From a virus, in IMG/VR virus record IMGVR_UViG_3300044796_000303, positions 1-47,440 of that record: a stretch of DNA of 47,440 nt. One strand, written 5' to 3'. A program made the position numbers and the translations under genes. Each line of letters opens with the position of its first letter. Within the stretch, counting starts at the first letter, position 1. Positions 1 through 47,440 of this stretch are shown piece after piece. The notes under the pieces are model-generated. The model made no database searches and was not told where the DNA came from. It saw nothing but the letters and a program-made list of their open reading frames with translations.

Positions 1-213
1 GCCGCCAAGGTGAAGGGGGAACTGCCCACGCGCCGTGAGCAGTCGCTGCTCTATGCCAACCTCAAGGAAGAATTCAATGAGGCCTGGTACTGGTCTGGCG
101 AGCAGCGCGAGGCAGGTTCCGCCTGGACTCAGGATTTCTTCATTGGATACCAGAGTTGGGTCTACTCGAGCTACCAGTGCCGCGCGCGCGCCGTCCGCAG
201 AATAGTTATTTAA
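1..213 (+). CDS. DGR target protein 2, 3' part (DUF1566, C-type-lectin fold), partial
   Basis: The frame is open from base 1, so this is the C-terminal 70 residues of a gene whose 5' end is missing here. The same gene start lies at 47141; joining 47141-47296 to 1-213 gives one in-frame protein of 122 residues, close in size to target 1 (120). The sequence has the DUF1566/FGE-type lectin signature: LPTRREQSLLYANLKEEF, then WYWSGEQREAG, a variable stretch, and the closing RARAVRR. The variable stretch between Trp42 and the QCRARAVRR end lies exactly over a DGR variable repeat, so it should be the ligand-binding face. The gene is followed after 25 bases by avd. The ligand is unknown. Family call is firm; the join across the window ends is inference. 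Confidence 0.85.
   Translation, partial: AAKVKGELPTRREQSLLYANLKEEFNEAWYWSGEQREAGSAWTQDFFIGYQSWVYSSYQCRARAVRRIVI
102..200 (+). repeat. DGR variable repeat VR2 (allele at window start)
   Basis: Ungapped 99-base match to the template repeat at 770-868. I count 13 mismatches and every one falls on a template adenine, the hallmark of DGR mutagenic retrohoming. The first 25 bases and the last 24 (GC-rich, ending CCGTCCGCAG) are identical to the template; the latter is the likely initiation of mutagenic homology. Template Asn codons (AAY) become Thr, Asp, Phe, Ile, Tyr, Ser and Val. The same repeat, with different bases at adenine positions, is partly present at 47398-47440. Confidence 0.95.
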
Positions 214-238
214 CCATTCAATAATTCATTTATTCAGC

Positions 239-607
239 ATGGCTCTCCACACCGACCTGCCCATTTACAAAGTGGCCTACGACCTGCTCGATGCCATCAC
301 CGACCTTGCCAAAAATATGCCTAGAGACTTCAAACAAAGCATCGGTGGCAAGCTGAGGGATGAAGGCGTAGAGATCGTGACGCTTATCTTCCGCGCCAAC
401 TGTGCGCGCGAGAAAGCGCCCCATCTCGAAACGCTGATCGAGCGGCTGCAGGTTGCCGAGCTGCTGTTGCGCCTTTCGCGCGACAAGCGGCTCATCTCGA
501 CCGGCCAGTATGCCAAGGCCATCGAGTTGACCAATAAGGTCGGCAAGCAGGCAGGTGGATGGCGTCGCTCCGCAATGTCGCCCGCTTCATCAGGGTCACG
601 GCCATGA
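239..607 (+). CDS. avd: DGR accessory variability determinant (Avd-like four-helix protein)
   Basis: 122 residues, almost wholly helical. The opening (LPIYKVAYDLLDAITDLAKNMPRDFKQSIGG), the charged middle helix and the GQYAKAIELTNKVGKQAGGW end match the Avd / 23S-intervening-sequence four-helix family. In the Bordetella DGR, Avd is a pentamer that binds the reverse transcriptase and the template RNA and is needed for cDNA priming. It sits between target 2 and the template repeat, the usual DGR order. The last residues (RRSAMSPASSGSRP) run past the normal family end towards the template leader. No strong Shine-Dalgarno is seen before the ATG at 239, so it may depend on read-through from target 2. 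Confidence 0.9.
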   Translation: MALHTDLPIYKVAYDLLDAITDLAKNMPRDFKQSIGGKLRDEGVEIVTLIFRANCAREKAPHLETLIERLQVAELLLRLSRDKRLISTGQYAKAIELTNKVGKQAGGWRRSAMSPASSGSRP

Positions 608-769
608 TGACTGTGCGAAATGTAGATCTGGTCGTGCCGCTGGCCGATAAGGCCACCGCCATGCGCACCACAGAAACCGCTGGGTTAGTTGCCCGCGATA
701 GGTCTGGCGCAGTTTCCCCGTTGACCGACTGCAGCGGTCGACAGGGCGACGTAGATAGCACGAACAATC

Positions 770-868
770 GCAGCGCGAGGCAGGTTCCGCCTGGAATCAG
801 AATTTCAACAATGGAAACCAGAATTGGAACAACACGAACAACCAGTGCCGCGCGCGCGCCGTCCGCAG
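770..868 (+). repeat. DGR template repeat (TR)
   Basis: Adenine-rich-core copy from which both variable repeats derive. Read in the target frame it gives a run of Asn codons (W-N-Q-N-F-N-N-G-N-Q-N-W-N-N-T-N-N-Q), the AAY pattern that adenine mutagenesis turns into most amino acids without stops. It ends with the same GC-rich 24 bases as VR1 and VR2; homology stops right after CCGTCCGCAG, which marks the IMH* boundary. The 160 bases upstream (608-769) hold no recognised gene; they include a small hairpin (723-727 with 735-739) and presumably form the 5' part of the template RNA. Unusually, the RT reading frame runs through the TR. Confidence 0.95.
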
Positions 869-1992
869 ATAAACCCGAACGCCACCATGCTGATTTTTCT
901 TTTGAGGAACTGGTGCAGGCCTACCTCGACTGCCGGCGCACAAAGCGCAGCAGCGCCAGCGCCATGGCTTTTGAAATGGCTCTCGAACGCAACCTGTTCA
1001 CCCTGTACGAAGATCTGCAGGAAGGCACCTACCGCCCCGGCCGCAGCATCTGCTTTGTCATCACGCGCCCCAAGCCGCGCGAGGTGTGGGCGGCAGACTT
1101 CCGCGACCGCATCGTCCACCACCTGCTCTACAACCGGATCGCGCCGCGCTTCTACGCGGGCTTTATAGCAGATTCCTGCGCCTGCATTCCGGGGCGCGGC
1201 ACTCTCTATGGCGCCCAGCGCCTTGAGGCCAAAATACGCAGCCTGACGCAGAACTGGAGCCGCCCGGCGTACTACCTCAAGCTCGACGTGGCAAACTTCT
1301 TCGTCAGCATCAACAAGCCCATCGTGCGCGAACTGCTCGCCCGGCGCATCACCGAGCCGTGGTGGATGGATCTGGCTGAGCAGGTCCTGTTCCACGATCC
1401 ACGCGAGGATTTCGAACTGCGCGGCTCGCCGGAGCTGCTCGACCGCGTGCCGGCGCACAAGCGCCTCACCGCCCAGCCGCCTCACCTCGGGCTGCCCATC
1501 GGCAACCTGTCGAGCCAATTCTTCGCCAACGTCCTGTTGGACGCCCTGGACCAGCACATCAAGCACGATCTGCGCTGCCGGCATTACGTCCGCTACGTCG
1601 ACGACATGGTGCTGCTGCACGAGTCGCCGCAATGGCTCAACGCCGCCCGCGCCGACATCGAGGCGTGGCTGCCGGCAAATTTAGCCCTGAGACTAAATCC
1701 GGCTAAAACTATCCTGCAGCCGGTTGACCGCGGCGTCGACTTCGTTGGCCAGGTCATCAGGCCATGGCGCCGCACTTCACGAAAAAGAACCGTAAATGAG
1801 GCCTTGAGCCGCGTGCGCCAGATCGACGCCGCCAATCTGTTCGAGACGGCCAATAGCTACTTCGGCCTGTTCCGGCAGGCAACGCACGGCCACCGCGTCC
1901 GCGCGCGGCTGGCCAATGTCCTGCGGTACAGAGGGCACTCGATCAAGGCTGATCTGACCAAAACGTATAGAACAAAAGGAACCACTCTATGA
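811..1992 (+). CDS. DGR reverse transcriptase
   Basis: About 393 residues from an ATG at 811. It copies TR RNA into adenine-mutated cDNA. Visible RT motifs: N-terminal SFEELVQAYLDCRRTKR, the block ITRPKPREVWAADFRDRIVHH, motif A with catalytic Asp159 in LDVANFF, the DGR-type motif GLPIGNLSSQ (227-236, SQ where group II intron RTs have SP), and the active-site YVDD at 262-265, followed by LRLNPAKT and GVDFVGQVIRP. There is no thumb/maturase or endonuclease domain, as usual for DGRs. The start is uncertain: 811 lies inside the TR with no Shine-Dalgarno; the frame is open back to an ATG at 559, and the next in-frame candidate after the TR is GTG 919, which would cut into the family's first conserved helix. 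The stop overlaps the next gene (ATGA). Confidence 0.95.
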   Translation: METRIGTTRTTSAARAPSADKPERHHADFSFEELVQAYLDCRRTKRSSASAMAFEMALERNLFTLYEDLQEGTYRPGRSICFVITRPKPREVWAADFRDRIVHHLLYNRIAPRFYAGFIADSCACIPGRGTLYGAQRLEAKIRSLTQNWSRPAYYLKLDVANFFVSINKPIVRELLARRITEPWWMDLAEQVLFHDPREDFELRGSPELLDRVPAHKRLTAQPPHLGLPIGNLSSQFFANVLLDALDQHIKHDLRCRHYVRYVDDMVLLHESPQWLNAARADIEAWLPANLALRLNPAKTILQPVDRGVDFVGQVIRPWRRTSRKRTVNEALSRVRQIDAANLFETANSYFGLFRQATHGHRVRARLANVLRYRGHSIKADLTKTYRTKGTTL

Positions 1993-2417
1993 AATTACAC
2001 CGCGAATCGGTTGCAGATGTACTTTCAATCGTTGAATCATACGGCCCGTGGGGAGCGGATATTAACGAAGGTCTGCGTTTCCAAATAATTCTAGCCGACG
2101 AAGTGAAGCGTCTTTTAGCTCTAATCAATACTCCAGAGCTGAATGATTTTGCCAAGGGCGTCGTGCTCGAGGCCGTCCACCAACAAGAGCGCTGGCCAGC
2201 TGGTCACGATGAAGGGAAAACTGACGCGGACTGGTTCTGGCTCATCGGTTATCTTGCGCAGAAAGCCCTCTATTCTGCTATGGCAGACGATCACGACAAG
2301 ATGCGCCACCATGTCATAACCACGGCTGCAGCGCTGGCAAACTGGCATTTGCAGATGATGGGCAAGTGCAACATGAGGCCTGGGATTGCCACTCCTGCGG
2401 ATACAGCGCAGCCATGA
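1989..2417 (+). CDS. conserved phage hypothetical protein
   Basis: 142 residues, acidic and helical. It carries the motif HDEGKTDADWFWLIGYLAQKA (around 73-93) followed by a C-terminal HHVITTAAALANWH. I recall this arrangement from small proteins of unknown function in proteobacterial phages, next to recombination or integrase genes. The ATG overlaps the RT stop (ATGA) and an AAAGGA Shine-Dalgarno precedes it, so it is probably translated with the RT. The His/Asp-rich motif could bind metal, as in MazG- or HD-like folds, but no function can be assigned. Confidence 0.75.
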   Translation: MKLHRESVADVLSIVESYGPWGADINEGLRFQIILADEVKRLLALINTPELNDFAKGVVLEAVHQQERWPAGHDEGKTDADWFWLIGYLAQKALYSAMADDHDKMRHHVITTAAALANWHLQMMGKCNMRPGIATPADTAQP

Positions 2418-4935: not shown

Positions 4936-5208
4936 TCAGTCCTCGATCTCGTCAATAATTATCGGATAGTGCGCATCGCGCCATTTCAGGCATTCGGGAA
5001 TGGTGTAGCAGGAATCGTCCACAAAGCGTTTTGCGGTTTTTTTTGGCGGCTTGGCTACCATCGCATGAGCGACGGGCGGAACGGCCAAAGCTGCGCGTGC
5101 CTTCGCGGCCGGATGCATGTAACCGACCATCCCGCACATCCCCGCGAAGAGCAGCGTACTAATAATCAAAACGCCGCAAATAATTCCCATTGCGAATATC
5201 GTTTTCAT
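4936..5208 (-). CDS. membrane-anchored hypothetical protein
   Basis: 90 residues from an ATG with AAGGA eight bases upstream. One N-terminal transmembrane helix (FAMGIICGVLIISTLLFAGMC), then a Pro/Ala/Lys-rich linker (AVPPVAHAMVAKPPKKTAKR) and a small acidic C-terminal domain with two Cys (DSCYTIPECLKW), likely periplasmic and disulfide-bonded. Topology resembles an inner-membrane spanin or lysis accessory, but there is no coiled coil. It lies between the endolysin and nuclease genes. Confidence 0.6.
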   Translation of the reverse strand: MKTIFAMGIICGVLIISTLLFAGMCGMVGYMHPAAKARAALAVPPVAHAMVAKPPKKTAKRFVDDSCYTIPECLKWRDAHYPIIIDEIED

Positions 5209-5289
5209 GTCCAGTCCTTCCAAGGGTCTGGCGGCCAAGGCCACCTGTCGTCCTGCTCCCAAGACACGGCTATTCGGCGAATTCAGCCG

Positions 5290-5745
5290 TCACGCATCAA
5301 ACTGCGTCAGATTGCGCCCGTTGATCACGGCCATGATCTTCTGCGCGTAATCCGGATCGGTGGCGTAACCGGCAGCGGCAACAGCGTCGACGAAAGCCTC
5401 GACCCCCACGCACGCGAAGCAATCCGCATAGCGCGGGTTGTCGAGCAGGAAAGCCGAATGGTCCTGGATGCACGATAGCCAGTCCGGGTACTTGCGCCAC
5501 TTTGCGGGCACGCTCACCCACGCACCGCTGATAAATTCGCGCGTGTACATGGCCAGCACGTCGCCCGTCCACGAAGCGTCTGCCTTAACGCCGAAGAGGT
5601 TGAAGCCCTCCTGGGCGAGCTGTGACGCGCCCCAGCCGCTTTCCAGCGCCGCCTCGGCGATCACGAAGCTGGCCGGGATTTTGGTGGTGGCCGCGCTGGC
5701 CTGCGCGGCAGGCGCTATGGCTGCGATGAAATCTTGTGGTGTCAT
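5290..5745 (-). CDS. endolysin, glucosaminidase (FlgJ-like) domain
   Basis: 151 residues. It fits the mannosyl-glycoprotein endo-beta-N-acetylglucosaminidase family: PASFVIAEAALESGWGASQLA with the catalytic Glu35 in ALESGWG, then GFNLFGVKAD and the C-terminal AGYATDPDYAQKIMAVI. It cleaves the glycan backbone of peptidoglycan. No signal peptide, so export should depend on a holin. ATG 5745 overlaps the previous stop (ATGA) and follows a GGAGGG site. The protein ends with NLTQFDA, close to the family's short phage members; no cell-wall-binding domain is present. Confidence 0.9.
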   Translation of the reverse strand: MTPQDFIAAIAPAAQASAATTKIPASFVIAEAALESGWGASQLAQEGFNLFGVKADASWTGDVLAMYTREFISGAWVSVPAKWRKYPDWLSCIQDHSAFLLDNPRYADCFACVGVEAFVDAVAAAGYATDPDYAQKIMAVINGRNLTQFDA

Positions 5746-5939
5746 TTTCCAAACCCTCCATGAGTGGCCAGCCAGTACATGCCGGCGCTGAAAACACCCG
5801 CCGCGATGCCGCGCGCCGTCCACTTTCCAAATTCAGCCCATTTGCGTTCCAGCCACGCATCGATGGCCGTCCCGATTATTTCGTTCTTTTCTTCCTGACT
5901 CAGCGTGTCGAGCGGGTTTTTTCTGCGTTCTTCAGGCAT
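5742..5939 (-). CDS. single-pass membrane protein, holin candidate
   Basis: 65 residues. A charged N-terminal half (PEERRKNPLDTLSQEEKNEI) is followed by one hydrophobic segment (ARGIAAGVFSAGMYWLATHGG). It immediately precedes the endolysin with an ATGA overlap, the classic holin-endolysin arrangement. One C-terminal transmembrane helix would be a class III-like holin or pinholin topology. No sequence family recognised; alternatives are antiholin or lysis regulator. Confidence 0.6.
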   Translation of the reverse strand: MPEERRKNPLDTLSQEEKNEIIGTAIDAWLERKWAEFGKWTARGIAAGVFSAGMYWLATHGGFGK

Positions 5940-5957
5940 TCCCTTTCCCTTTCCTTT

Positions 5958-7700
5958 TTATGGCGATGGGGCAGACAGTCCCCACGCCGGATAGGGCGCA
6001 GGCACCACTCTCGTTATCCAGTTGTCTATGGTGATCGTCGGCGTGCCAGCCGCGCTGTTATTGAAGTACGCATTGATGTAGTTGCGAATTTCAACCGCCT
6101 GATAAGGCATCTTGATCGGCGCCGTCACCAGCCAGCCGCACCACCCGGAAACCGACATATTCATCGGGTAGTAATAGGTGACGATGGAGCCGCCGGTGCT
6201 CGTGATATACGCGGTCGGGTATGTCCAGTACGCCTGGGTGTAGAACATGATGTTGCCGAACTGGTTAGAGCCCGGCGTGCAGACGTGGACATAAGATTGC
6301 ATCCATTGCCCTGCGTTTATGATGCCCAGCCCAGAAGTGACCGCCGTGGAAACTATTGTCAGGGCGTCATATGAAGTGCTTACCTTCCCCGGCGTCACCG
6401 TGACGGTGAGCTTCTCGTGCTTGCTGTCGATGGCCGACACAGCGCACACGGCGGTGGTGCTGCCCCGGTTGGTGGAGAGCGTCACGGTGAGGTTCGCGGG
6501 CGCGCTGCCGGACATCCCCGTTGCATTGCATGTGCCGCCCGTACCCGTGAATCCGCCGGACGACAGCAGGTTGCCCACAGTCGCGTCCTGGTTGAAGACG
6601 CTGCCGGGGCGCACCACCCTCTGTATTGCCGTGAGCAGCACATTGCCAGCTGCCACCGCGCCCAGGTAGTTAGGGTGTATCTGCCCGGCGATAACGATCG
6701 CGCCGGAACTGTGCGCTACCGCAGCGGTACCTTCCTGCGCGCGCGTGACCGTCCATGTGGTCGTGCCCGCGCCGGCGGTGACCAGCACCTGCTCCTGGTT
6801 GCCCAGACCATAATCCAGCAGCGCCGGGAACGTGCCCGTTGTGGGCATGTTGGCGTTCGTGCCCGAGGCTACGTGGATGATCGTATCTGTGCTTGCCACC
6901 GCTGACGCCAGCGTGGTTTCGCCATCCTCGCGAAACATGGTGATGTTCTGCGTGCCGTCCGCGTAGCTCAGGGCGGCGCTGCGCTGCGCCACGATCACGC
7001 CCGGCGTGCCGGATTGCGCGGCTATCCACGCATTGACTTGGTTGCGCAGGGTTTGACGTGGGTCGCCGATGGGCCAGTCGCTGCGCGGCGTAATATCCTC
7101 AAGGATGATCCAGCGCCCCGTGCCCGTCACCATGTTGATGGCAAGCTGTAGCTGGCCAGTCACGTAGGAGAGGGGCGGCGGATTGGTGGTGCCGGTGTCG
7201 CCGCTGTTGATGGTGTTGGTGCCGCACTCGAAACCGATGACCTTGGCCTTTGTCATGGTCAGGAGTGTGGCCAGGCGCGGGATGCACCCCGAGTAGCCGC
7301 CGACCGGCTGGAGGTGGTCGCCCGCCACGCCGTTGTTCGCGCCCATCAGGCTGGAATTTAGCGAGTTCGGCACGTTGAAAGAGTTGGTGTCGTACCAGCT
7401 ATCGCGGCTGAAGCGAGGGTCTTGCGACCAGGCCTGCGTATATTCCCCGGTGGGCGACGGATCTACCGAGCAATAGATGGACGACACCGTGACGCAGCTA
7501 TTGTCGTTCTGGTCGCTGTAATTGGTGACGCTATCGCCCACCCAGGCGATGGGCGAACCCGTTGGCAGCGGCAGGCTGGCAAATGCAGCCGTAAGGTAGG
7601 GCGAAAGCAGCTTGCCCCCCCAGGCGGTAAGCACCTGAGCCTGTGCAAGCGTCTGCACAGCCAGCGCAAGGCAGGCCAGGATGGGCAGCAGCTTTTTCAT
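5958..7700 (-). CDS. secreted SGNH/GDSL-type hydrolase, large
   Basis: 580 residues with signal peptide (MKKLLPILACLALAVQTLAQA). SGNH blocks: block I WVGDSVTN with nucleophile Ser57, NGVAGDHL (Gly block), ECGTNTINSGD (Asn block) and a His in GQIHPNYLGA (about His342). Family members are esterases or deacetylases acting on sugars and lipids. The region from about 360 on is beta-rich and may be a carbohydrate-binding part. A SASA/SGNH enzyme in a phage often trims O-acetyl groups from surface polysaccharide; a Sec signal on it is unusual for a virion part and points to a secreted enzyme. Start chosen for the GAGGTG site and ATGA overlap. Confidence 0.75.
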   Translation of the reverse strand: MKKLLPILACLALAVQTLAQAQVLTAWGGKLLSPYLTAAFASLPLPTGSPIAWVGDSVTNYSDQNDNSCVTVSSIYCSVDPSPTGEYTQAWSQDPRFSRDSWYDTNSFNVPNSLNSSLMGANNGVAGDHLQPVGGYSGCIPRLATLLTMTKAKVIGFECGTNTINSGDTGTTNPPPLSYVTGQLQLAINMVTGTGRWIILEDITPRSDWPIGDPRQTLRNQVNAWIAAQSGTPGVIVAQRSAALSYADGTQNITMFREDGETTLASAVASTDTIIHVASGTNANMPTTGTFPALLDYGLGNQEQVLVTAGAGTTTWTVTRAQEGTAAVAHSSGAIVIAGQIHPNYLGAVAAGNVLLTAIQRVVRPGSVFNQDATVGNLLSSGGFTGTGGTCNATGMSGSAPANLTVTLSTNRGSTTAVCAVSAIDSKHEKLTVTVTPGKVSTSYDALTIVSTAVTSGLGIINAGQWMQSYVHVCTPGSNQFGNIMFYTQAYWTYPTAYITSTGGSIVTYYYPMNMSVSGWCGWLVTAPIKMPYQAVEIRNYINAYFNNSAAGTPTITIDNWITRVVPAPYPAWGLSAPSP

Positions 7701-8536
7701 TCGCACCTCACCACCCAGTTCGTGCTCGCCAGCACCGACCCCTTGAGCGCCCAGCTCGTCGTGGATGGCGTGGTTGAATATGCCAGGATCGATGTACCCG
7801 CTGCCGTGGAATTCGCGGGCGAGAACGTGCAACTATGCGGGGCGGTCGTCCAGGCCTGAGAAAACGTCACAGTGCAGGTGGTCGTAGTCGCAGAGCCTAT
7901 GGCGATGCCGAAATCGTGGTCGCTCGGGTTGGCAACGATCACCGACGAGATGGCGCCGTTGGTGGTCGTGCCGCACGCGCCCGACGCGATGGTGGGCGAG
8001 CCGCCGCTGATCGCGAGGCGCGCGCGCCCGTACTGGTCGATAGATACAGCATTGGTCTCCGGATTCCGGGATACGCCCGACACGGAAGAGGCTGGCGCAG
8101 TGTTGAACATGTAACCGCCGCCAGCGCCCTGCCCAGTCCCTTGTGAAGCATTAAAGATGCGAAGCGCGCCCGCCAGGTTAAGATTGCCTGCGGCGACGTT
8201 CTGCACGCCGAATGACTGAACAACAGGCGCGTTATTGTCTGCCGCGCCAAGGTTAATGGTTGCCGAGGCTGGCGCGGTGACAGGCACGCCGCTGATCGAG
8301 GCAATAGTGGCAACACCCGACGCATTGATCGACACATCGCCGGTGACCGGGACAACGCCCACAGCGCTGGAGATTTGAGGGGCGGTAAAATTACCGTTAA
8401 CGATCGTCGGCGAGAGGAAAGTGTCGCCATAGCTTATATCCCCGAAAGCCACGGCCAATCTTGATAAGAGCGGAGAAGTCACTACGACCAGCAGAATAAA
8501 TAAAGCTAAACCACTGAGGAATTTTTTTATTGTCAT
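7697..8536 (-). CDS. exported low-complexity beta protein
   Basis: 279 residues. N-terminal signal or anchor (KKFLSGLALFILLVVVTSPL), then a long Ser/Thr/Ala/Gly/Asn-rich part in tail-fibre style (SINASGVATIASISGVPV, NNAPVVQSFGVQNVAAGNLN). The C-terminal 100 residues (about 180-279: GSPTIASGACGTTT ... WVVRCE) resemble the tip domains of phage tail-fibre-like proteins, with four Cys. A GGAGG site precedes the ATG. It ends ATGA-overlapped with the SGNH gene, so the two may work together. Signal peptide plus fibre-like sequence is odd for a virion protein. Confidence 0.6.
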   Translation of the reverse strand: MTIKKFLSGLALFILLVVVTSPLLSRLAVAFGDISYGDTFLSPTIVNGNFTAPQISSAVGVVPVTGDVSINASGVATIASISGVPVTAPASATINLGAADNNAPVVQSFGVQNVAAGNLNLAGALRIFNASQGTGQGAGGGYMFNTAPASSVSGVSRNPETNAVSIDQYGRARLAISGGSPTIASGACGTTTNGAISSVIVANPSDHDFGIAIGSATTTTCTVTFSQAWTTAPHSCTFSPANSTAAGTSILAYSTTPSTTSWALKGSVLASTNWVVRCE

Positions 8537-10373: not shown

Positions 10374-13300
10374 TTAACCCCCTGTTGCGCTGATATTTAC
10401 CGTCCCGCCCACGTCTGTGTCGGAACTGTTGAAAACGTGAACTGTGCAGCCAGTCGCCGTGACAGAATTGACCACCGCCGTCAAAGCCGCAGAACCCACG
10501 GCTGAGGCCGTCACCACCGGGGCGTTATGAAATGTCTGCGCGCCAGCCGTAGTGCTTATGCCCGCTGCCGTGAAGCAGACAGCCGTGCCGCCCCCGGCTA
10601 TCGTTACGCCGCTGCCCGTCAAGGTCTGCTGCACCGCGTCCACCGTTGGAATAAACGAATTGATGCAGGGCGTGTCGCCGTCCGTGGTGTCTATCACAAA
10701 TTCCATCTGGTAATAGCGCGTGTCCGCCGTGCCTATAGTCCACGGCGCATAGCCCGACCACGTTATATTGTCCGGGCTGGTTTGAAGCTCGATCAGCGGG
10801 TCTACCGAGCCGCCGGCCGTGGGCGGAACGAAGCAGCCGACCGAACCCCACACGCGGTCATTCGAGGCGAATCCGCTGTCTATCACCGCGCCCTGATAGG
10901 CGCAGGACGGGAACGGGTTATAGACAAAATCATTCCACAGCGGATCATTCGCCGGGGTTGTGCCGCCCGTGGCGCTGGCGAGCGTCTGGCTGTCCGGGTA
11001 AATCACGCCCGTCCAGTGCTGCACCATGTCGGTCAGCGTTCCGGGCCACGCCGGAGCCTCGTTGTTGGACGAAATCAGCACATTGGCGTTGACCACGTTG
11101 AGGTTGCAGGTCGCGGGCGTGACGGAATAATTGCCCGACACGTCCACCTCGCAGGCCATCAACGTCCAGCTACCCGGCGGGACTTTCGCCGTGGTGATCT
11201 GCGTCCCTTTCGTCACCTTGGTAATCGGGATAGCGGAAGCCCATGCCGTCGAGCCGGGCGGCGCATAGCGGAACTCAAAGCCCGCGATGTAGCCTATCGG
11301 GTCGGGCGAGGCGTTCCACTGGAACACCACCACGTTGCCGTTCTGCGAGGCCGCAAAGCCCGTCACCGGGGAAGGCCTGGAGATGGAACCTTGTATCGTG
11401 TAGGCGGTCGCCGTCACCATCGCCAGCGTGTACTGGCTCGCACCGTACAGGTTGAACGGCAGCAGCTTGACGTAAATGGTCTTGCCCACCCACGCCGGGT
11501 TGTAGGCGTACTTGAAAATCGCGTCATCGAGGCGCACGAACGGCACGCCTGATGCATGCGCCGCGTTGCTGGTGCCATACACCCCGCGCCGAGTGTACGC
11601 GGTCAGGCTGTACTGGTTGGCTCCCGTGAGCGTGGCCGTGGAGTAGGCGATCAGCTCCGGGTTGCCGGGGTCATCAATCAGCGCGAGCGTGTTGTGGTTG
11701 TCCGCATCGGCGCTGGAGCCGCTCGAAATCACGCCGCCGCTCACGCTCAGGTTGATGCCCAGCGTGTCGGTGGTGTCGGGATCGGTTCCCGCCGGATAAC
11801 TCGTAGACGTGACGCCGTAGCGCGCGGGCGCGTTGATGGTGCCTGCCTGCACGTACGTCTCGTTGTCGGTGCTTACCCATACCTGCGCGCCGCCCCAGTT
11901 TGCACCCCCGGCCGAGGCCATCCACAGCTCGAAGCCGGACGCGGTGAGTATGCCCGGCGCGTCGAATATCACCGGCGTATTCGACAAACCCGGATCCGCG
12001 TTCATCATCGTGGTGGCGCCGCCGGGCAGCGGAGGCGCAACCGCCTGCACGGTCGCGTTGTTGACCAGGTAATCCTCGGCGATGATGGAAAGCTGCTCGT
12101 CGCTGTCCTCTTCCACCTGGATAACGCGCACCACCAGGCCGTTGAAACCCAATGCGCTGTCGGTCAGCGAAACAAGGTCCATCGGTTCCAGCAGCGCGTA
12201 TTTCCAGCCCAGTTTGAAGGTGTACTGGTTGCGGACATACAGCACGCGCTGGAGCTTCACCTGCGCCACGTTGCGCGCCACCTGCGCGTCGGTGATGTAG
12301 TCGTGCTGGATGATCGGCATGGGGCGCAGGCCATAGAGGTCGATGTTGGCCTGGTCCTGTGACTGCGCGATGTTCGGGTTGTACTGGTTGGTGCGGTCGG
12401 GAAAGCCCACCTGCACCTGGTTGAAGGCATCGGCGGGATTCGAGCGCGTGACCACTATCGGATCGCCGCTGCCGTCGTCCAGATAATCGTCATCGGTAAA
12501 CGCATACTGCACTGTCGTGTTCGGCGTGAAGGTGACGCCGTTGCCTGTCACGGCGGTATCCCCATAGGGAATGATCGTCAAATTTCCCTGCGACCAAACC
12601 GGGGCCGAATTGGTGATGTCGCACACCTCCTTGATGAAGTCGCTGGCCTGCTGCTGGCTTGTCAGCGCCGGGGATATAAAAATCCCGTTTGCCACGCAGT
12701 AATTCGAGAAGCTCGACGCGCTGCCGGAAAGCCCCGACAATGGTATCTGCGAGCTGTTCACCGCCCCGTACGGGTTCGCGCCGTTCACGCCGTAGGTCGT
12801 GTTGGTGATGTAATCGGTAATCACGTCCGCCGGGTTCGCGCCCTGCACGTAGGGCGTAATGCTGTATGTCCCGCTCCCCGCATCCTGCGTGGCGGTTATG
12901 GTTCCAGACCCCGCATTGGTCGGCTGGATCGCCACGCCGCCGTCGGTCGCGGACAGGCTCGCCGTGGTCGCGTTTGCATCCACCACGGAATAATTCGTTG
13001 ACCCCGAAAACCCGCCCGGCAGGCTGCCGCTGCTCGATAGTTGCACCACGTCGCCGTTTATCAGCAGCCCGTTGTGCGAAAACTGGTTCGTGTACGCGGT
13101 CACGGCGCGCGCGGCTAGCGTCCTCGGCGTGGTGGACAGCGTAAATACGTTCGGCCCCGCGCCATAACCTGTGATGGTCGTCCCCGCCGTCACGCCGGAG
13201 GCGGAAATCACCTGGCCAACGGCAAACGACTGGCTGTTGGTCGGATTGGTCACGACCGTCATCACGTTGCCGCTGAACGAGGCCGTGGCGCCCATCACCT

Positions 13301-44923: not shown

Positions 44924-46750
44924 ATGAATGCACCCCTGAATACCGCAGAAACCCCAACAGAAACGCTGCTGCATCCATCGCTGGACGAACTCGTCCCTTC
45001 GCCCACGCAGCCGCGCATCCGAAATGGCTTCGATGACGCCAGCCTGGGCGAACTCGCCGCCTCGATCGGGACTGTGGACGTCGCACAGCCCATCCTGATG
45101 CGCGTGCGGCAGGATGGCAAATATGAAATAGTTTGCGGCGAGCGGCGGTGGCGTGCATCGAGGCTGGCGGGCAAACGGACTATCCCCGCCATCCTGCGCA
45201 CCCTCACCGATATACAGGTGGTGCAGATACAACTCATCGAAAACGTCCAGCGCAAAGACCTGGACGAAATCGAAGAGGCCGAGGGCTACCACAAGCTCCT
45301 GCAGCAGACCGATCCGGACACCGGCAAACCATTCACCGCGGACCGGCTCGCCGAATTGCAAGGCGTGAGCAAGGGCACCATCTATGCGCGGCTCAAGCTG
45401 CTGGATCTGTGCGCGGAAGCGCGCAAGGTATTCTTCGAGGGCAAGCTCGAAGCATCCACTGCGCTGCTCATCGCCAGAGTATCGCCCGAAAAAATCCAGA
45501 TGGAAGCATTGGGCGACATCCTGCGGCAGGAAATGTCCTACCGCCGGGCGCGTGACCACATCCAGCGCAAATACATGCTCGAACTCAAGCAAGCCATTTT
45601 TGATATCACCGATGCCACGCTCGTCAAAAAGTCGGGAGCCTGCGCCGAATGCCCCAAACGCACCGGCAACCAGCCCGAACTCTTTGGCGACGTTAAAAAC
45701 AAAGACGTCTGCACCGACCCGGTTTGCTACGGCATGAAAAAAGCCGCGCACTACCTGAACATTCGCAACCAGGCCGAGGCCGAAGGGGCGAAGATCATCA
45801 CGGGGGATGCAGCGAAAAAAATCCTGCCGTATAACCACGCCAAGCACTATCTCGAGGAAAAGGGCTTTGCCACGCCTGACACAAAAATCCCCAATGACCC
45901 TAAAGGCCGCACCTGGGGGCAAGCCATAAAACAGACAAAAGCTCCGATCAAAGCCGCCATCATCGAGAACCCGCATGAAAAGGGAGAAATCATCCAGGCG
46001 TTCAACATGGCGGACGCTGCCAAGGCGCTGCGCGAACAGGGCTATGAAATTACCTTGCGCGGTCAGGATTTCCACCCGGTAAAAACCGAGAAGGAAAAAG
46101 CGGAAGCCTCCAGACTGAAAGCCAAAACCAAGGCCGAAAACATCTACCGCGCGCGCCTGGCGCAGAGTATCCACGAAAAGGCTGAACAAGCCCTTTGCGG
46201 CGAAAACCCGCAACTTCACCCGGAAATATTCCGCTTGCTGGCCAAGGAAATCTACAACCACTCCAAGGCCTATGCCGTCAAGAAAAACCTGGCCTCAACG
46301 GCCCTTGGTGCAAAAGCGGAAAAAATGATGGCGTACGAGATTGACCCGGCGTTCATCAAGCACATGGACACCCTCACGCCCCAGCAGTGCCTGCTCATCA
46401 TGGTCGACCTGATCATCGCCCGCGAAGAAAAAGTAGAAGACTGGCAGGTAAAAAACAAAGACGAGCCGGACACCATGCTCGCGCTGGCCACCATGCACGG
46501 CATAGATGCCGCAGCCCTCAAAACGGAGGCCGAGCAGGAAGTCAAGACCGCGATGGACGCCAAGAAAAAGAAAGCAGCGCCCAAGAAGGCAGCGGCTACG
46601 CCCGCGAAAAAAACACCGGCCAAAAACGCCGGCAATTGGCCCTTCCCGTCGCCGGCCGAAGGCGTTGCCGCCAACCAGGATGCGCCGGCAGCAGTTAAAC
46701 CCGCAAAGAAAAAATCAACCGCATCACAACCACAAGGAGCTACAGCATGA
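44924..46750 (+). CDS. ParB-like partition/DNA-binding protein
   Basis: 608 residues. ParB N-terminal domain: LDELVPSPTQPRIRNGFDDA, IVCGERRWRASRLAGKRTIP (GERRWRA, residues 72-78, the CTP/arginine patch), IQLIENVQRKDLDEIEEAEG. HTH part: FTADRLAELQGVSKGTIYAR. A Cys cluster (CAECPKRTGN ... CTDPVCYGMK, about 239-270) may bind zinc. The C-terminus (about 545-608) is Lys/Ala/Pro-rich and histone-like. No ParA is encoded here. Such ParB-like proteins occur in phages and mobile elements as partition, replication or nuclease-like factors. The stop overlaps DGR target 1 (ATGA), tying the two together. Confidence 0.85.
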   Translation: MNAPLNTAETPTETLLHPSLDELVPSPTQPRIRNGFDDASLGELAASIGTVDVAQPILMRVRQDGKYEIVCGERRWRASRLAGKRTIPAILRTLTDIQVVQIQLIENVQRKDLDEIEEAEGYHKLLQQTDPDTGKPFTADRLAELQGVSKGTIYARLKLLDLCAEARKVFFEGKLEASTALLIARVSPEKIQMEALGDILRQEMSYRRARDHIQRKYMLELKQAIFDITDATLVKKSGACAECPKRTGNQPELFGDVKNKDVCTDPVCYGMKKAAHYLNIRNQAEAEGAKIITGDAAKKILPYNHAKHYLEEKGFATPDTKIPNDPKGRTWGQAIKQTKAPIKAAIIENPHEKGEIIQAFNMADAAKALREQGYEITLRGQDFHPVKTEKEKAEASRLKAKTKAENIYRARLAQSIHEKAEQALCGENPQLHPEIFRLLAKEIYNHSKAYAVKKNLASTALGAKAEKMMAYEIDPAFIKHMDTLTPQQCLLIMVDLIIAREEKVEDWQVKNKDEPDTMLALATMHGIDAAALKTEAEQEVKTAMDAKKKKAAPKKAAATPAKKTPAKNAGNWPFPSPAEGVAANQDAPAAVKPAKKKSTASQPQGATA

Positions 46751-47109
46751 ATGCACCAATCGAACATCCCCATCTTGAACTCAAGGAAGGCGAAAAACTC
46801 GCATTCAGCATCACGTTGCCGGACGGCAAAACCACCCACACCATCCTGCTGCCCGGCGACAACGACGACGCCTCCTGGGAAAAGCAAATGGAGTGGGCCA
46901 AATCCATCGGTGGGGACCTGCCCGATCGTTCCGAGCAAGCCCTGTTCTTCCAGTACATGCCGGATGAATTCCAGAAAGACTGGTACTGGAGCAACAAGCA
47001 GCGCGAGGCAGGGGCCGCCTGGGGTCAGTATGTCAGCAGTGGGAGCCAGCATTGGTACGGCAGGAGCGACCAGTGCCGCGCGCGCGCCGTCCGCAGAGTA
47101 GCCATTTAA
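46747..47109 (+). CDS. DGR target protein 1 (DUF1566, C-type-lectin fold)
   Basis: 120 residues. GEKLAFSITLPDGKTTHTIL, then LPDRSEQALFFQYMPDEFQK and WYWSNKQREAG lead into the variable stretch and the closing CRARAVRR. It matches target 2 over most of its length and ends in variable repeat VR1. The ATG overlaps the ParB-like stop, so translation is coupled. No signal peptide or membrane part: the protein is cytoplasmic unless built into the virion. DUF1566 domains are known DGR targets in bacteria and phages. Target 2 follows after 31 bases. Confidence 0.9.
   Translation: MNAPIEHPHLELKEGEKLAFSITLPDGKTTHTILLPGDNDDASWEKQMEWAKSIGGDLPDRSEQALFFQYMPDEFQKDWYWSNKQREAGAAWGQYVSSGSQHWYGRSDQCRARAVRRVAI
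46998..47096 (+). repeat. DGR variable repeat VR1
   Basis: Ungapped 99-base match to the template (770-868) with 17 differences: 13 at template adenines and 4 at non-adenines (TR 785, 786, 804 and 835, all to G). The last 24 bases are identical to the template and VR2. Template Asn codons become Gly, Tyr, Ser, His, Asp. The few non-adenine changes suggest an older, partly drifted target or selection after retrohoming. Confidence 0.95.
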
Positions 47110-47140
47110 CCATTCAGTCATTCATCAATTGGAGCAGCCA

Positions 47141-47440
47141 ATGAATAAAGCAAAAAATGCATTTCTCGCCTCCATCCTCAAGAAGGGCGAGCAGTACGCC
47201 GGCATCATCCTGGGCAAGGATGGCCAGCCTGACTATCACCTGGTATTGCTGCCAGGCGAAGCGGAGAAAGTGAACTGGCAAAGCGCCAAGGAATTTGCCG
47301 CCAAGGTGAAGGGGGAACTGCCCACGCGCCGTGAGCAGTCGCTGCTCTATGCCAACCTCAAGGAAGAATTCAATGAGGCCTGGTACTGGTCTGGCGAGCA
47401 GCGCGAGGCAGGTTCCGCCTGGTATCAGGATTTCTACTAT
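47141..47440 (+). CDS. DGR target protein 2, 5' part (DUF1566), partial
   Basis: 100 residues to the window end, starting at an ATG with GGAG eight bases upstream. KKGEQYAGIILGKDGQPDYH, then LVLLPGEAEKVNWQSAKEFA and GELPTRREQSLLYANLKEEF. From 47297 on it is the same sequence as bases 1-144. The first 52 codons complete the gene that begins mid-frame at base 1. See that entry for fold and role. Confidence 0.85.
   Translation, partial: MNKAKNAFLASILKKGEQYAGIILGKDGQPDYHLVLLPGEAEKVNWQSAKEFAAKVKGELPTRREQSLLYANLKEEFNEAWYWSGEQREAGSAWYQDFYY
47297..47440 (+). repeat. terminal overlap with bases 1-144
   Basis: 126 identical bases, then five differences in 18 (positions equal to 127, 128, 140, 142, 143 of the start copy). 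All five lie on template adenines (TR 795, 796, 808, 810, 811). This supports a circular map of about 47296 bases with two alleles of VR2 at the ends; the partial VR2 allele here is 47398-47440. A tandem third target gene is the alternative. Confidence 0.85.

Follow-up and report, generated by a model that had tools for sequence, protein, structure and literature searches.

The window analysed here is the whole of a 47,440-nucleotide stretch, positions 1 to 47,440 of the IMG/VR virus record IMGVR_UViG_3300044796_000303, and it carries a diversity-generating retroelement (DGR). This is very probably an active element of a temperate phage, in which the reverse transcriptase (RT) and the accessory variability determinant (Avd) rewrite two tandem genes for small, free lectins at their 3' ends. 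An earlier reading, made from the sequence only, had proposed a DGR with two tandem C-type-lectin targets; the A-biased repeats, the RT, the Avd and the lectin fold were all confirmed. The features are listed in Table 1.

The cassette and its relatives

The cassette combines an RT of the DGR clade, an A-restricted pair of template repeat (TR) and variable repeat (VR), a C-type-lectin target ending in a VR, an Avd and variation in the population. It is a DGR, and the cassette type is already known. The RT, picked out earlier by its motifs YVDD and GLPIGNLSSQ, matches PF00078 and phrog_1423, and the Avd-like gene matches PF22296 and phrog_3206. The best PDB match of an RT profile of the clade was the RT of BPP-1 (8ub7, E 5e-48). 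Stop and start codons overlap at 46747 and 1989, and the ParB-like gene is probably in one operon with the DGR. In 33 related loci, too, a homologue of this gene lies close to the DGR.

Table 1. Features of the cassette and its surroundings, in the order of the joined ends
Feature	Position	Strand	Details
ParB-like gene	44924-46750	+	PF02195 E 8.8e-25, PF17762; stop overlaps VP1 start
Target 1 (VP1)	46747-47109	+	120 aa, class A, C-type lectin (Lcl_C/DUF1566-like)
VR1	46998-47097	+	17 mismatches to TR, 13/17 at TR A
Octamer tract behind VR1	47104-47132	+	ATTTAACC ATTCAGTC ATTCATCA ATTGG
Target 2 (VP2), 5' part	47141-47440	+	class B, 122 aa once ends joined
Terminal overlap, second VP2 allele	47297-47440	+	5/144 differences vs 1-144; VR2 part 47398-47440
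Target 2 (VP2), 3' part, first allele	1-213	+	
VR2	102-201	+	13 mismatches to TR, 13/13 at TR A
Octamer tract behind VR2	208-236	+	ATTTAACC ATTCAATA ATTCATTT ATTCA
avd, accessory variability determinant	239-607	+	122 aa; PF22296 bAvd E 2.8e-13; phrog_3206 'Avd protein of DGR' E 8.6e-35
RT-15 structured RNA (RF03018)	576-770	+	cmscan 166.6 bits, E 2.5e-40, gathering 82 bits
Template repeat (TR)	770-869	+	100 bases, 30 A; VP frame reads QREAGSAWNQNFNNGNQNWNNTNNQCRARAVRR*
Reverse transcriptase (RT)	811-1992	+	PF00078 E 1.9e-14; phrog_1423 E 3.4e-117
ORF overlapping RT stop	1989-2417	+	phrog_25267 E 1.5e-35; same probable operon

Read in the target frame, the TR is Asn-rich (AAY), which is the usual DGR design. 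The sequence-only reading had made it 99 bases long, one base short; its mismatch counts at template adenines, 13 of 13 in VR2 and 13 of 17 in VR1, were reproduced. With 30 A in the 100 bases of the TR, this restriction has a hypergeometric P of 1.7e-8 for VR2 and of 1.8e-5 for VR1. VR1 has four non-A differences, more than most relatives; its last rewriting may therefore lie further back, or have used an older TR. The final 28 bases are identical in TR, VR1 and VR2, and in the comparison of IMH and IMH* the differences are confined to the flanks. No third VR was found on either strand of the whole window, where the next-best TR match scores below 17 (shuffled maximum, 15.7).

Related loci were collected by an RT scan of IMG/VR (80 viral loci) and by an RT-alignment scan of bacterial genomes (80 loci); both sets are best matches and not a random sample, and a small number of the loci are duplicates. 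The bacterial loci are mostly from Betaproteobacteria and Pseudomonas, the nearest being from Gallionellaceae, Sterolibacterium, Hydrogenophilaceae and Sideroxydans. Going by the taxonomy of these nearest loci, the host is probably a betaproteobacterium. When 158 TR/VR pairs were scored neutrally, with an equal penalty for every mismatch, the mismatches fell on 1934 of 4929 template A, 19 of 2167 T, 22 of 5311 C and 10 of 3626 G, so that 39% of the template A was changed vs 0.3-0.9% of the other bases. Bacterial genomes supplied 165 more pairs, with 2073/5038 for A vs 28/11346 for the other bases. Variation is thus far from evenly spread over the template: 98% of the TR/VR mismatches in related loci are on template A.

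The sequence-only reading had called dual-target phage DGRs uncommon, and DGRs with more than one VR or target do make up 13-29% in published surveys (PMC10743442, PMC3521204, PMC6642488). For this lineage the claim fails. The VR count was limited to the 142 related loci whose sequence reached 2.5 kb or more upstream of the RT; of these, 129 have at least two VRs and some have three to five. Dual targets are normal here. The tentaclin DGRs of gut phages (PMC10743442) are similar in that one TR serves two C-lectin targets. Those targets differ in domain architecture and are proposed receptor-binding proteins, unlike the two targets of the window, which are both small stand-alone lectins of one family.

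Circular genome and recent diversification

IMG/VR lists the record as linear and as a whole virus entry. The circularity allowed for by the sequence-only reading is borne out by the 144-base end overlap and by VR spacing as in relatives. The initial 101 bases of the overlap are identical; all five differences are in VR2 at TR A, of which the 144 bases hold 12 such sites (P 1.6e-6). With the ends joined, the VRs lie at -1184 and -784 from the RT, which matches the nearest relatives (L015, -1181 and -782; L021, -1192 and -791; L024, -1186 and -788). The simplest reading of the window is a complete, circularly permuted temperate-phage genome whose ends meet within the cassette. Most simply read, too, the assembled population held at least two VR2 alleles, and the overlap is then a record of activity, the allele evidence coming from this one assembly overlap. 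Since the two alleles differ only at TR A, the population appears to have been diversified recently.

Diversification of VR2 probably broke the assembly at the cassette, and the linear listing is probably due to DGR variation in the end repeat. A complete phage genome can appear linear in metagenome catalogues when DGR variation has left its ends no longer an exact match. Other catalogued DGR phages may be misclassed as linear in the same way.

Close copies among the relatives vary likewise. Loci L085 and L087, which have identical RTs, differ at 14 positions in 3.4 kb, and all 14 are in VRs at TR A; L030 and L031 have one difference, in a VR at a template A. A search of IMG/VR with the exact 24 bases of the TR 3' end gave no match, and hence no near-identical copy of the window for a population comparison. 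Mutagenic retrohoming by the cassette is very probable, and the DGR appears to be active or recently active. In the proposed mechanism, with retrohoming chemistry and order taken from BPP-1, the RT with Avd would copy a template RNA (RT-15 plus TR) to cDNA while misreading A, and the cDNA would replace the 3' ends of the two tandem target genes. Each target would be a small, free C-type lectin with its variable hairpin as the binding face.

Two other explanations were weighed against an active, circular element. The cassette might be a decaying remnant with old differences and a DGR that no longer works, as the four non-A differences of VR1 could suggest; this is very improbable, with two VR2 alleles in one assembly that differ only at template A, and with Avd, RT and RT-15 all intact. 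The contig might instead be linear, as IMG/VR classes it, with its ends formed by two different tandem targets and three targets altogether, and 14 relatives of the first set do carry three VRs. This reading is also given hardly any credence: the overlap starts with 101 identical bases, whereas paralogous targets here are far apart, and the joined ends reproduce the VR spacing of the nearest relatives.

Template RNA, RT frame and octamer tracts

The RT-15 RNA abuts the 5' end of the TR and was found in the same position in all six relatives tried (L005, L013, L024, L097, L115 and L137). It is the probable 5' part of the template RNA. The RT-n RNAs are said to come from Weinberg et al. 2017. 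In BalMu-1 (L174), the Rfam RNA RT-14 was located at 7798-7941, between TR and RT and thus downstream of the TR.

The RT had been taken to start at 886 (+). The conserved core does begin there, but it has no in-frame start of its own: the frame contains an ATG at 811, inside the TR, and is open already from the ATG at 559. The distance from TR to core is about 16 nt. An in-frame start between TR and RT core exists in only 17 of 113 distinct loci. The TR-to-core distance takes 12-13 values, and yet the phase is constant in 128 of 131 loci, or in 75 of 77 after clustering of the RTs at 80%. Two of the exceptions (L051 and L059) have an ATG immediately after the TR, and for the third (L128) the anchor was probably mis-set. 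Given the constant phase over so many spacer lengths and the few starts before the core, the RT frame must enter through the TR.

RT-15 itself is in phase with the RT in 77 of 106 distinct loci, the window included. Through RT-15 the RT frame is stop-free in 68 of these 77, vs 0 and 0 for the other frames, and in 1 of the 29 unlinked loci; phases were taken unconditionally and the non-fused loci served as controls, because conditioning on an open frame is circular. The frame is open through RT-15 in most betaproteobacterial members. Ribosomes reading through the template RNA, or starting within the TR, may feed the RT. A functional N-terminal peptide encoded by RT-15 was considered and dropped, since the peptide is unconserved and codon periodicity is absent from RT-15 (0.22/0.25/0.25 vs 0.17/0.14/0.45 in the RT). 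Overlap of TR and RT as such was reported earlier (PMC3521204). Unlike in the DiGReF group 3 DGRs of that report, conservation of the frame is shown here by a phase that stays the same across many spacer lengths, and the conserved frame also extends through RT-15.

BPP-1 (mtd/avd/TR/brt) resembles the window in its Avd and RT, the order target-avd-TR-RT, A-specific changes and a C-type-lectin target ending in the VR. About 150 nt separate its TR from its RT and hold the RNA that recruits RT-Avd (PMC12875486), whereas the structured RNA of the window lies upstream of the TR and ends at the TR 5' end. The window's TR continues into the RT gene, through a frame that is conserved and mostly free of stops. 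BPP-1 also has one tail target of 381 aa, in contrast to two targets of 120-122 aa outside the tail module, and a GC hairpin after the VR (8-bp GC stem, GAAA loop) that is required (PMC3240598), where the window has an octamer tract and no GC hairpin. Judged from the sequences compared, the departures from BPP-1 are the RNA upstream of a TR that runs into the RT, the missing GC hairpin and the octamers.

A search for a GC hairpin with a 7-10 bp stem and a GRNA loop found only 5-bp stems within 90 nt of VR1 and VR2; BPP-1, F2, ZX4290 and Dulem 37 were positive controls of the script. Stems of at least 7 bp follow 3 of 133 VRs of viral loci, and some members of the Pseudomonas group of the clade do have the GC hairpin. 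The octamers have the consensus ATTYARTM and occur as 3-4 units with a strict period of 8, 3' of the VRs of the clade and not of the TRs. In the window, both VRs are followed by four units. The three-unit pattern has five matches in the whole window, four of them behind VRs (expected, 0.13). At least three strict units follow 159 of 271 distinct VRs vs none of 133 TRs, with 0.45 in shuffled sequence; when one mismatch per unit is allowed, 261 of 274 VRs qualify (shuffled, 18). Among periods of 5-11, none except 8 gave such a run behind VRs, and period 12 gave five. Free autocorrelation of the VR 3' flanks is strongest at lag 8 and shows a 4-base sub-period as well. The shared string ATTTAACCATTC was rejected as a fixed element, as it has exact matches in 9 of 271, and the octamer period is the real invariant. 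No report of octamers behind VRs was found in the papers that could be searched.

The octamer tract may mark the acceptor for retrohoming. It could also act in termination, with stops in all frames, or at the RNA level in the operon, since a period of 8 steps through the three frames, the units often hold TAA, TAG or TGA, and the tract begins at the stop codon of the target itself. This alternative is rather unlikely: the tract lies behind the VRs of proximal, distal and remote targets and never behind TRs by the strict counts above, which is what an element identifying the target would be expected to do. Somewhat to the doubtful side is the joint proposal that octamers replace the GC hairpin as acceptor mark, that ribosomes read RT-15 plus TR as the leader of the RT, and that pairs of non-virion lectins are diversified. 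If true, it would couple template, messenger and enzyme in temperate phages of Beta- and Gammaproteobacteria. Discrimination of target from template by DGRs was worked out mainly in BPP-1 with its required hairpin; in this clade the hairpin is missing in nearly all phage contigs and a periodic tract is near-universal, so that a simple swap could test target recognition.

Single comparators from other DGR groups (L172-L177) have their hairpin 7 or 8 bases behind the VR: Lagaffe has AATCTGNN at 8, and F2, ZX4290 and BPP-1 have theirs at 7. This spacing is perhaps a general, overlooked feature.

Target proteins and their setting

The targets are small homologous proteins, with several N-terminal classes across the relatives. 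The AF2 model of VP1 (pLDDT 93.2) had as its best Foldseek match the C-terminal domain of Legionella Lcl (8q4e, TM 0.72, E 6.9e-5). The sequence match is weak: VP1 scores 20 bits against PF07603 (Lcl_C/DUF1566), below the Pfam cut-off of 34.9, and 67 of 74 relatives match this family at E <= 0.01. The predicted fold supports a kinship of the targets with Lcl_C/DUF1566. Legionella Lcl is a longer bacterial protein without a DGR, of which this domain forms one part, unlike the stand-alone DGR targets found here. VP1 is in one supported clade and VP2 in another, and their order is the same in the nearest relatives, so their duplication is old. Both lack a hydrophobic leader and contain one Cys each. 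No stop codon was found in any VR examined in the window and the relatives, and the variable codons are mainly Tyr, Asp, Gly, Asn and Ser. The two VRs gave no sign of a common ligand: their variable residues are not more alike within genomes (0.142) than between genomes (0.124), 17 of 200 shuffles being as high.

In the window, the minus strand carries the structural genes, with terminase at 32-34 kb, portal and capsid at 23-28 kb and tape measure and tail at 10-19 kb. The plus strand carries the DGR, which follows a CI-like repressor and the ParB-like gene and is on the strand opposite to the tail genes at 5.9-19 kb; its targets are outside the tail module. Phages Magia, QDWS, Cruim01 and Haboob also have their DGR in the early/lysogeny arm. 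Of 24 long contigs checked, the 17 that have a PF00589 integrase all have it downstream of the RT, at a distance of no more than about 5 kb; in one of them that distance crosses the contig ends. The tail module houses the DGR in BPP-1, Lagaffe, BalMu-1, ZX4290 and Dulem 37.

With the targets in an early/lysogeny operon and not in a tail module, switching of tail tropism is not the default reading; the targets may act outside the tail, probably early in infection or in the lysogen. There they could be non-virion binders, for superinfection exclusion, counter-defence or neutralisation of a variable host or phage ligand, with the two divergent copies having different ligands, a reading held at a little under even chances. 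The early operon, the missing leader peptide, the single Cys of each protein, the separate clades of VP1 and VP2 and the within-genome diversity of the variable residues are consistent with such binders, although virion proteins of phages need not be encoded in the late operon. Both lectins might instead be virion parts, for example tail-tip modules on a fibre, with a DGR that switches tropism as in BPP-1. Tropism switching is the best-characterised function of phage DGRs (PMC3240598), the five comparators named above have tail-module DGRs, and a small adaptor could be supplied in trans. A virion role is nevertheless considered improbable, if well short of negligible: in the window and the four named relatives the targets are on the strand opposite to the tail genes, beside ParB-like, recombination, repressor or integrase genes, they have 120-200 aa and no trimerisation or attachment domain, and Pseudomonas phage Medea1 keeps both of its targets in a recombination region without an RT. 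Hypervariable lectins occur in the lysogeny region of many temperate phages of the clade, some of which are isolates or come as prophages from cultured Pseudomonas and Burkholderia; in such a place the lectins may serve a purpose other than tail tropism.

In Medea1 (L170), two tandem DGR-type lectin targets, near copies of those of Cruim01, were located at 4959-6267. No RT was found anywhere in the genome and no Avd near the targets. Medea1 thus appears to be a natural loss of the diversifier with the lectins kept.

Burkholderia phage Magia and Shewanella phage vB_Sb_QDWS belong to the same RT clade (68-69% aa identity) and share the small tandem lectins and the early/lysogeny location, and Magia has RT-15. 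They differ from the window in a class C proximal target, and Magia also in an extra VR in gp46. The Magia record already names two genes as possible DGR targets. In Magia (L005), gp46 (12163-12627), annotated as hypothetical, carries a VR at 12517-12607 and by this repeat appears to be a third target beyond the two named in the record.
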